From assembly GCA_029263415.1 (NCBI GenBank), contig JAJCXN010000037.1, positions 62,001-126,000 on the forward strand: a stretch of 64,000 nucleotides of DNA. Direction: 5' to 3'. The stretch is from Acidobacteriota bacterium (GTDB taxonomy: Bacteria; Acidobacteriota; Thermoanaerobaculia; Multivoradales; Multivoraceae). Shown in pieces: positions 24,921 to 50,628 of this stretch (positions are counted from its first letter, which is position 1; every line of letters begins with the position of its first letter). A program made the translations under genes and the position numbers. Under the pieces are notes generated by a model. It ran no database searches, was not told the origin of the DNA, and saw only the letters and a list, made by a program, of their open reading frames with translations.

Positions 24921-25661
24921 ATGCGGTTGAACAGCACGATAGGACTAGTAATCGCTCTTGGATTCTCTTCGACTGCACATAGTCAGGGTTGGCCGCCCGA
25001 GATCAAGAATCTCAAGGTCTTGGCGGCTGACACCGAGTTCGCTGATCTGATGACTTTGATGAGAGGGTTCAGTTTCGCCCTCGATGCACGGTGCCAGCAT
25101 TGTCATGTTGGCGAGGAAGGGCAGCGCCTGAACACGTTTGACTTCGCGTCAGATACCAAGGAGACCAAGGGGCGCGCTCGCGCGATGCTTCAGATGACAA
25201 GAGCCATTAACCAAGAGCACATTGCGAAGATGGGAATCGAAGGACAGGCGGTCGAGGTAACGTGCGTCACTTGCCATCGGGGAGCTCAACGGCCCGAGCA
25301 GTTGGACACTGTACTCCTGAGAACCGTCGCTGTCGACGGAATCGATGCCGCGTTGAGTCGCTACAGTGAACTGCGCAAGGAGCACTATGGTTCAGCGACT
25401 TTCGATTTCGGTGAGGCGACGTTGGTAGTTGCTGCGGAGAGGCTGCTTGAGCAGGAGAACACGAATGCGGCGATTCCACTGCTAGAGCTCAATCGAAAAC
25501 ACTTTCCCGACTCCGACTGGACCGCCGGCACGCTCGCAGGTGCTTATGAGCAGGCCGGCCGGAAACGCGACGCGCTTGCGCTGTGGAAGACGTTGCTTGC
25601 AGCGTCCCCCGAGGATCGCCGTTATCAGCAGCAAGTCAGTCGCCTGGAAGATGAAGAGTGA
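24921..25661 (+). CDS. Periplasmic dihaem c-type cytochrome with TPR-like tail
   Basis: 246 residues with a signal peptide (LVIALGFSSTAHSQG). Two haem c sites are visible: Cys58-Gln-His-Cys-His and, near residue 114, CVTCHRG. The arrangement LMTLMRGFSFALDARCQHCH resembles the cytochrome subunit family of photosynthetic reaction centres (CytoC_RC), which also has many non-photosynthetic members. The C-terminal 70 residues (NTNAAIPLLELNRKHFPDSDWTAGTLAGAYEQAG) look like TPR helices. It probably shuttles electrons in the periplasm. AAGGAGG precedes the ATG by nine bases. A possible promoter, TTGACC-N16-CATAGT, lies at 24706-24733. Divergent from the two-component pair. Confidence 0.85.
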   Translation: MRLNSTIGLVIALGFSSTAHSQGWPPEIKNLKVLAADTEFADLMTLMRGFSFALDARCQHCHVGEEGQRLNTFDFASDTKETKGRARAMLQMTRAINQEHIAKMGIEGQAVEVTCVTCHRGAQRPEQLDTVLLRTVAVDGIDAALSRYSELRKEHYGSATFDFGEATLVVAAERLLEQENTNAAIPLLELNRKHFPDSDWTAGTLAGAYEQAGRKRDALALWKTLLAASPEDRRYQQQVSRLEDEE

Positions 25662-26556: not shown

Positions 26557-26931
26557 TTAGGCGGACTGCTTGAGGCCTTCGAACCATTTCTGACTGAGAT
26601 CGAACGAAGTGCTGACTGCATTGCGATAGCTCTTGCGCGCGGTCTGGTTGAAGCCGATCCACTCCTGGACGATGGTCTTGGCTTCCGTTGGCAGGCGCTC
26701 TGAGTTGTCGAGCCAGCTGTTCACGCGATCTTCACTGCGCTCTTGGACGGAGACGACAGCGTCGTAAGTGCGATCGAAGGCGGTCTCTTGCATCTCAAGC
26801 GAGCGCTGTTGCATTGCGATCGCGCGATCGCGGAGCTTGGCCGCAACGGTGGGCTCGGCGGCGTCGACTGTGGCGTCGGCTTTGGTGTCGACTGGGGCGG
26901 TCTTCTTAGCGGTGGTTGTCTTGGTGGCCAT
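26557..26931 (-). CDS. phaP: Phasin-like polyhydroxyalkanoate granule protein
   Basis: 124 residues from the ATG at 26931, which has AGGAG eight bases upstream. The N-terminus is Lys/Thr/Ala-rich (MATKTTTAKKTAPVDTKAD), like the histone-like tails of some phasins. The rest is one long amphipathic helix region: MQQRSLEMQETAFDRTYDAV and IVQEWIGFNQTARKSYRNAV, the last part close to the phasin pattern. Phasins coat PHA storage granules. The link is strengthened by the divergent phaR gene and its operator-like boxes. No PHA synthase is seen in the window. Gene symbol is by analogy. Confidence 0.75.
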   Translation of the reverse strand: MATKTTTAKKTAPVDTKADATVDAAEPTVAAKLRDRAIAMQQRSLEMQETAFDRTYDAVVSVQERSEDRVNSWLDNSERLPTEAKTIVQEWIGFNQTARKSYRNAVSTSFDLSQKWFEGLKQSA

Positions 26932-26964
26932 GGTTGAACTCCTGAGTGGTGCCGAAGGTTTTGC

Positions 26965-27127
26965 TGCGATGCAACGGTACTTCCGCTGCGATGCACACAT
27001 TATGCTGCATCGCAACAAATCTGTCAAGAGCGAAACCCTAGGAACTCGCCAACGACGATTCCATCCCTTTTGGATACTGGGTCGGTTTGCTACTCTAGCA
27101 AGGCTAGGAAGCGCTCGCTGCATCGCA
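26965..27127. promoter_or_regulatory. Four-copy TGC-rich operator array between phaP and phaR
   Basis: The 9-mer TGCGATGCA occurs at 26965 and 26987, and its reverse complement TGCATCGCA at 27006 and 27119. The 26987 and 27006 copies form an inverted repeat with a ten-base gap, centres 19 bases (about two turns) apart. One copy sits in the phasin promoter spacer, one at the expected start point and one in the leader; the fourth is 79 bases before the phaR start. PhaR proteins of proteobacteria are known to bind TGC-rich sequences, so repression of phaP and self-regulation are inferred. Confidence 0.7.
26999..27027 (-). promoter_or_regulatory. Sigma-70 promoter of the phasin gene
   Basis: On the minus strand TTGACA, exactly 17 bases, then CATAAT: a perfect -35 and a one-mismatch -10. 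The start point would be near 26992, about 60 bases before the phasin ATG. A TGCATCGCA box lies in the spacer. Confidence 0.75.
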
Positions 27128-27178
27128 GCAGAGATACCTTCTTTGCGCTTCGCTCAGGTTGGAAACGGAGAAGCGAAG

Positions 27179-27189
27179 CTGCACTGCAG
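27179..27189. promoter_or_regulatory. TGC-rich palindrome just before the phaR ribosome site
   Basis: CTGCACTGCAG, a perfect palindrome around one base, ends four bases before the AAGGAG of phaR. It shares the CTGC/GCAG ends of the 9-mer boxes but is not identical. Confidence 0.45.
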
Positions 27190-27205
27190 CGTAAGGAGCT
27201 TGGTG

Positions 27206-27911: not shown

Positions 27912-28187
27912 CTACGAGCCTTCGCCCTCGCCCTCGCCATCACCTTCAGCTTCGGCATCGCCATCAGCGTCGCCATCGCCTTCAGCTTCGGCATCGTTCT
28001 CGCCTTCCGCTTCTTCGCCCTCGCCGATCGCGGGCTCGCCGGACTCGAAGCCTTCGGCTGCAATGGGCGTCTCATCTGCGGGAGGGGCTGCGGTTGGGTC
28101 TGCTGATTCTGAGGATCCGCCACAGCCGGTGGCTAGGATGGCTGCGCAGGCTAGGGCGAGTACGTAGGTGCTGATTGCTGGGTTCAT
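27912..28187 (-). CDS. Small lipoprotein with acidic Ala/Glu/Gly/Asp repeats
   Basis: 91 residues from the ATG at 28187 (frame open to 28253). Signal YVLALACAAILATGC ends in a lipobox with Cys followed by Gly-Gly, so likely anchored in a membrane. The last forty residues are almost all Glu, Asp, Gly and Ala in a degenerate two-residue pattern (AEAEGDGDADGD). The DNA is a degenerate 6-base repeat. No family is recognised. Such tails may bind cations or be extended spacers. Close neighbours give no hint: convergent with phaR. Confidence 0.6.
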   Translation of the reverse strand: MNPAISTYVLALACAAILATGCGGSSESADPTAAPPADETPIAAEGFESGEPAIGEGEEAEGENDAEAEGDGDADGDAEAEGDGEGEGEGS

Positions 28188-49434: not shown

Positions 49435-50628
49435 CTATTGAGGCACGGTACCTGGCAGAGCCACTGCCAGACCGGTCGACCAGTGTTCCTCTAGAACGTC
49501 ACCGATGGCAGCTTGCAGCCCCTCCATTGAGTAGTTTGAAGCCCACTGGGCGGCGTCGGGGAGAAGCGCTTGGTAGTCCGAGCGATGATCGAGCACATCT
49601 TCAAGAGCGCGGGCAATTGCCTCGGCGCTCAAGCCATCGAGCACGCATCCGCGGCCCGCGATCATCCGACCCATGATGCCAGCGTCGGGTGCGATGCATA
49701 GGCAATGGTGGATCATCGCTTCGGTGAGTACCTTGGGCCATCCCTCGTGCTGCGAGGCCAGCACCATCACATCGCCCCACGCGAACTGCTGAAGCGATTG
49801 GTGGTGGCTCATAGCTCCGAGCAATCCGATGTGTTGGGATAACTCGTGCTTCTCGATGAGGTGCAAAGCCGCCTCGCGGAGTGGGCCGTCGCCGACCAGT
49901 CGAAGCTCGACCGGGTACTTGATCTGAACCAGCGCAATGGCTTCGATCAGCTCAAGGACGCCTTTGCCGCGGTACAGTCGTCCCGAAAAGACAATGCGCA
50001 ACGGACTGTGGAACTGGTGATCCTTGGTGGCTTCAAGCGCTGAATCGATTTGGGCTTGTCCCAGCATGGAGGTGAAGAAGTCGACGACGTGTGGGGGATC
50101 GTTGTCGAGCTTGCCGTAGACCGTGACCGGACCGCGGAACCAACGCTTGAACAATCTCCGTTGCAGTGCCACGAGCTTGCGCTCGGTTGGATATGAACGC
50201 CACTGGCCAGCGTACTTGGCGCACATCGGTCGGCCGAGTAGCGGGGCGATGACTGAGGCGATCAATGACAGGTTGGCGGGGCCTCGGATGTGGACGGCGT
50301 CAGCACTGCGGATATGGAGGGCAATTTGAAGCGCGAGGACCGGAAGAACGAGGATCTGCCACAGCTTGCCGAACACTCGGTCGCTGCCGGTTTCGAGCAC
50401 CGAAGCGGGCACGACATTGGCCGCGGTGAAGGGAACCGCATCAGCCGGGGGCTGTTCTCTTCGCCAAGGTCCAGCGATGCGAACCTCTTCGAATAACCCG
50501 GCCCAAAGATCGATCTCTTTGGCATACGGCCCATAGGACCACAGCTTCGACTGCCACAAGTAGTGTCGCGGAGCCGAGATCACGACCAGAGTGCGTGGTG
50601 ACTTGCGGGCGAGCAGGGGAGTGGGCAT
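49435..50628 (-). CDS. Glycosyltransferase family 4 protein
   Basis: 397 residues. N-terminal half recognisable by TLVVISAPRHYLWQSKLWSYGPYAKEI; the C-terminal nucleotide-sugar domain by PLRIVFSGRLYRGKGVLELIEAI, ELRLVGDGPLREAALHLIE, and the GT4 donor motif ASQHEGWPKVLTEAMIHHC (E..7..E). It transfers a sugar from a nucleotide donor, probably for surface polysaccharide or glycolipid, at the cytoplasmic face of the inner membrane. Stands alone, divergent from the enoyl-CoA hydratase-like gene. Confidence 0.88.
   Translation of the reverse strand: MPTPLLARKSPRTLVVISAPRHYLWQSKLWSYGPYAKEIDLWAGLFEEVRIAGPWRREQPPADAVPFTAANVVPASVLETGSDRVFGKLWQILVLPVLALQIALHIRSADAVHIRGPANLSLIASVIAPLLGRPMCAKYAGQWRSYPTERKLVALQRRLFKRWFRGPVTVYGKLDNDPPHVVDFFTSMLGQAQIDSALEATKDHQFHSPLRIVFSGRLYRGKGVLELIEAIALVQIKYPVELRLVGDGPLREAALHLIEKHELSQHIGLLGAMSHHQSLQQFAWGDVMVLASQHEGWPKVLTEAMIHHCLCIAPDAGIMGRMIAGRGCVLDGLSAEAIARALEDVLDHRSDYQALLPDAAQWASNYSMEGLQAAIGDVLEEHWSTGLAVALPGTVPQ

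Follow-up and report, generated by a model that had tools for sequence, protein, structure and literature searches.

The question raised by this locus is what a short sequence is doing when it occurs four times, as the exact 9-mer TGCGATGCA, in the 274-bp divergent gap (26932-27205) between a minus-strand gene for a small, phasin-like protein of 124 residues and a plus-strand phaR gene. The gap lies in a 64,000-nucleotide stretch of an Acidobacteriota genome (the window), and the initial annotation took the repeats to be operators through which PhaR directly represses the phasin gene, and perhaps its own. From the comparisons set out below, it is very probable that the gap is indeed a PhaR operator array, from which a standard PhaR circuit would repress the phasin-like gene until polyester granules titrate PhaR away.

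Table 1. Features of the phasin-like gene/phaR locus; positions are those of the window, and the boxes are putative PhaR operators.
Feature	Position	Strand	Remarks
Phasin-like gene, 124 aa	26557..26931	-	ORF with AGGAG site
PhaR box 1, TGCGATGCA	26965..26973	+	Leader, ~20-28 nt past predicted start; 1 mismatch to Ralstonia consensus YTKNTGCRNYGCANMAR
PhaR box 2, TGCGATGCA	26987..26995	+	Over predicted transcription start; 2 mismatches to YTKNTGCRNYGCANMAR
Predicted sigma-70-type promoter of phasin-like gene, TTGACA-17-CATAAT	26999..27027	-	11/12 matches; TTGACA 27027-27022, 17-bp spacer, CATAAT 27004-26999; predicted start ~26992
PhaR box 3, TGCGATGCA	27006..27014	-	-35/-10 spacer; 1 mismatch to YTKNTGCRNYGCANMAR; position same in relative G002
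PhaR box 4, TGCGATGCA	27119..27127	-	Perfect palindrome GCTGC-GAT-GCAGC; 83 bp before phaR; 1 mismatch to YTKNTGCRNYGCANMAR
Box 5, TGCACTGCA	27180..27188	+	Related box in GCTGC-ACT-GCAGC, directly ahead of phaR ribosome site
phaR, 210 aa	27206..27838	+	PHB/PHA accumulation regulator DNA-binding domain

All four copies are found where they had been reported, and a scan of the window gives one further TGCGATGCA, at 49690 within coding sequence, and no others outside the gap. To these is added a related fifth box, overlooked earlier, whose context GCTGCACTGCAGC has perfect palindrome arms of 5 bp. Dinucleotide shuffling of the gap (n=20,000) never yields more than two copies of the 9-mer, as against the four real ones, nor more than three of the degenerate form TGCRNYGCA, of which the real gap has five together with none of the control pattern TGCYNRGCA. 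A distance of 19 bp separates the centre of box 2 from that of box 3, as first described (22 bp for boxes 1 and 2), but the reading of two copies as an inverted repeat is misleading; every box is itself a near-palindrome (TGC-GAT-GCA in the four exact copies), which leaves little meaning in a division into direct and inverted copies.

This near-palindrome fits TGC-RNY-GCA, the recognition palindrome published for PhaR in Ralstonia, Sinorhizobium, Herbaspirillum and Rhodobacter. The Ralstonia consensus is YTKNTGCRNYGCANMAR (PMC12849132), from which boxes 1-4 depart by one or two mismatches, and box 5, whose core fits, by four, all of them in its weaker flanks; that of Sinorhizobium is YGCRNYGCR (PMC12542648), and TGC-N3-GCA sites take the form CTGC-N3-GCAG in Rhodobacter sphaeroides and TG-N-TGC-N3-GCAA in Herbaspirillum (PMC3206438). 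The suggestion that the 9-mer consensus is specific to this lineage has thus to be given up, since the published sites elsewhere share what is a general PhaR box (PMC12849132, PMC12542648), and the local trait is the preference for GAT at its centre, relatives having mostly ANY. Across 78 named PhaR loci, mostly alphaproteobacterial, TGCRNYGCA occurs 21 times in the 23.4 kb before phaR and 17 times in 145 kb downstream, with a count of 2 for the control pattern; in other words, the box is enriched ahead of phaR.

The protein encoded beside the array has the appropriate DNA-binding domain, matching PF07879 (PHB_acc_N) at E=3.6e-25 with 88.3 bits against a cut-off of 25. Its match to TIGR01848 (E=9.3e-26 over 98 residues) scores 90.3 bits, below the equivalog cut-off of 109.45, such that the protein is to be read as a PhaR homologue and not as a certified equivalog. 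The C-terminal domain PHB_acc (PF05233), the part through which PhaR proteins bind PHA polymer, gives no match at E up to 10, and the structure model is poor (pLDDT 65). This is the one PhaR homologue of the genome, and it is ~46% identical to the best named PhaR found. Beyond phaR, on the minus strand at 27912-28187, lies a small lipoprotein-like ORF, the C-terminal half of which is a low-complexity acidic run of Glu, Gly, Ala and Asp.

PhaR is present in 59 of 60 genomes, and in each of the 22 family relatives that have it a homologue of the small gene is divergent from phaR, across a gap with one or more boxes (the divergent pair is found in 23 genomes altogether). Outside the family, the small gene is absent from 36 order relatives, and no box lies in the 600 bp before PhaR in all but two of the 36. 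Each of the 21 species of the sister genus has a single genomic copy of the 15-mer TTGTGCANYGCAGCA, always in the gap between phaR and the small gene, where the order of TTGTGCANYGCAGCA, two copies of TGCTGCAC and then TGTCAA is kept amid divergent sequence. The AGT form of this 15-mer is identical to the site TTGTGCAGTGCAGCA before SMa1961 in Sinorhizobium meliloti, to which purified PhaR binds efficiently. A leader sequence near the ribosome site of the phasin-like gene (26938-26950; CTCCTGAGTGGT on the plus strand) is also common to the window and the sister genus, beyond what a ribosome site needs.

These distributions bear on whether the boxes could be the operators of some other regulator, with phaR merely a neighbour. 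Such a reading draws on the order relatives, almost all of which have PhaR with no boxes before its gene. It is nevertheless unlikely, given that the box sequence equals the published PhaR consensus and that box, phaR and small gene travel together in every one of the family relatives with PhaR. As a separate observation, the same arrangement is found with another protein on a Terriglobia-labelled contig (L068:1932-2990), where a PhaR 46% identical is divergent from an unrelated 307-aa protein that has a sub-threshold PhaE match (E=4e-4), and the gap contains a perfect GCTGC-AGT-GCAGC box and a TTGACA.

The promoter of the phasin-like gene, described at the outset as near-ideal, can be seen as such on the minus strand, being the only sigma-70-like match in the region against 0.1 expected per shuffled region. 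The placement of copies in its spacer, at its start point and in its leader is likewise borne out by boxes 3, 2 and 1, respectively, where the start is a predicted rather than a mapped one. A related genome of a third genus (G002, genus g3) has the promoter TTGACA-GGATTGC-TGCAGTGCG-G-CATACT-TTC-CGCGTTGCA, with box offsets equal to those of the window and the same 19-bp centre spacing. Since there are boxes across both the spacer of the promoter and its start, as at Ralstonia phaP1, a block to the polymerase would be expected.

It could be held that PhaR binds the array chiefly to activate, or as a divergent switch between two promoters, in the manner of its activation of Ralstonia phaP3 (PMC12849132) and of some Bradyrhizobium genes, and boxes 4 and 5 do lie upstream of the phasin -35 element. 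This too is improbable, because boxes 2 and 3, over the start and within the -35/-10 spacer, are in the position to block the polymerase, the -35 and -10 elements are already so near to consensus that an activator is not needed, and Ralstonia phaP1, with sites around its promoter, is repressed. Much less probable still is an action of the boxes in RNA, as small hairpins in both leaders (GCTGC-GAT-GCAGC); transcripts could include boxes 1, 4 and 5, which can form short stems, but box 3 is located ahead of the predicted start, in a position kept in G002, a 5-bp stem closing a loop of three bases is weak, and no terminator-like site was found in the region. The reading of the boxes as PhaR-type operators, set to block the phasin-like promoter, is the one on which the published consensus, the family-wide conservation with phaR and the common promoter layout agree.

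The array also stands apart within its own genome. The 9-mer occurs 77 times in 6.89 Mb, ~64 of these in genes and 13 intergenic (calls made with a simple home-made ORF caller), and since four of the 13 are the array itself, there is no intergenic excess outside it. Equal density across the genome, which would have counted against the operators, is thus not what is seen, a second intergenic cluster being absent. Pairs of TGCRNYGCA within 32 bp of each other occur in three places, two of which are intragenic, leaving the gap as the only intergenic place in the genome where such boxes cluster; the eight perfect YTKNTGCRNYGCANMAR sites are all intragenic. That the cluster arose by chance or from a repeat element and has no function, as the many mostly genic 9-mers might suggest, has a negligible probability, the Poisson chance of four 9-mers in the gap being ~3e-12 at the genome rate and ~1e-7 when corrected for the whole genome, and the conservation of the boxes across three genera already contradicting it. 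Upstream of other pha genes the 9-mer is wanting: phaE and phaC, which encode a PHA synthase of class III on another contig, have no box in front, and the other intergenic 9-mers occur singly, away from recognised pha genes. A wider regulon is accordingly rejected.

Whether PhaR limits its own synthesis is a more evenly balanced matter. Autoregulation of phaR through boxes 4 and 5 is plausible, with about an even chance of being correct; the argument for it is one of position, because no candidate phaR promoter beat shuffled sequence. In G002, ~350 bp separate the start of phaR from the closest box and no box belongs to phaR itself, an arrangement that makes autoregulation weaker as a general feature.

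The nature of the presumed target deserves separate consideration. AlphaFold2 predicts two long antiparallel helices (residues 29-76 and 82-123, with pLDDT mostly >90) after a disordered N-terminus rich in Lys, Ala and Thr. Searches of Pfam, NCBIfam and the PDB with the 124-aa protein, alone or as a 16-member family, gave chance matches only and no convincing relative, and nothing significant came from either of the two fold searches made against the PDB. In other words, this is a small helical protein encoded with pha genes that matches no phasin model, and it is its position, size, fold and control that point to a phasin. In sister-genus genomes, phaE and phaC come next after the small gene. 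On balance, the proteins probably constitute a phasin family not yet described, whose small helical-hairpin members would serve as a granule coat controlled by PhaR beside a class III PHA synthase; among the genomes searched they occur in a single bacterial family, and they have no sequence match to phasin models. A search of 44 order relatives from beyond the bacterial family found no member of the phasin-like family (26557-26931, L273-L286). A second, unboxed phasin-like paralogue is found elsewhere in the genome in all 14 sister-genus genomes checked. Elsewhere in the window, at 24921-25661, is a protein in which a TPR segment is joined to a cytochrome c domain of the photosynthetic reaction-centre type (PF02276, E=2.4e-13).

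A close likeness is that to PhaR and phaP1 of Ralstonia eutropha (Cupriavidus necator) H16, where a PhaR-family protein meets TGC-RNY-GCA sites at a sigma-70 promoter, one of them at the start, and the target is a phasin. There, one site lies just upstream of the -35 element and one around the start, whereas here boxes 1-3 are all downstream of -35, with box 3 in the spacer; moreover, phaR is here divergent from its target, and the target protein has no recognisable sequence kinship to known phasins. PhaR (AniA) of S. meliloti is similar in its consensus and in the paired boxes at phasin promoters, which in that organism flank the -35 element, unlike those of the window. Its regulon is broad, with dozens of sites, whereas the only intergenic cluster found here is the phaR/phasin-like gap. 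PhaR of R. sphaeroides and Paracoccus denitrificans and PhbF of Herbaspirillum seropedicae use the TGC-N3-GCA boxes given above, and for these proteins phasin repression and autoregulation have been reported. The number and position of the boxes differ from those of the window, where the target matches no phasin model and the synthase is of class III (PhaE-PhaC).

The repeats are almost certainly the landing sites of a repressor of a known kind, forming part of a classic switch. Known PhaR proteins keep the phasin gene repressed until they are drawn onto nascent granules (PMC9049629). By analogy, PhaR from the adjoining gene would bind the TGC-RNY-GCA palindromes, and when on boxes 1-3, about two helical turns apart, would block RNA polymerase at the phasin-like gene. 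As polyester granules form, PhaR would shift to their surface, leaving the promoter free for the putative coat protein to be made, and once that surface was covered PhaR would return to the DNA, where boxes 4 and 5 may let it limit its own gene.

The site is a solid, ordinary regulatory one of a known kind. What it would add is a further lineage with the PhaR titration switch, one in which the DNA code is unchanged and PhaR is only ~46% identical to the best named one. The mechanism is unsurprising, and of greatest use among what the site yields is a candidate for a new phasin family, for the PhaR box code points to phasin-like proteins that sequence models miss and may in this way serve as a useful lead in annotation.
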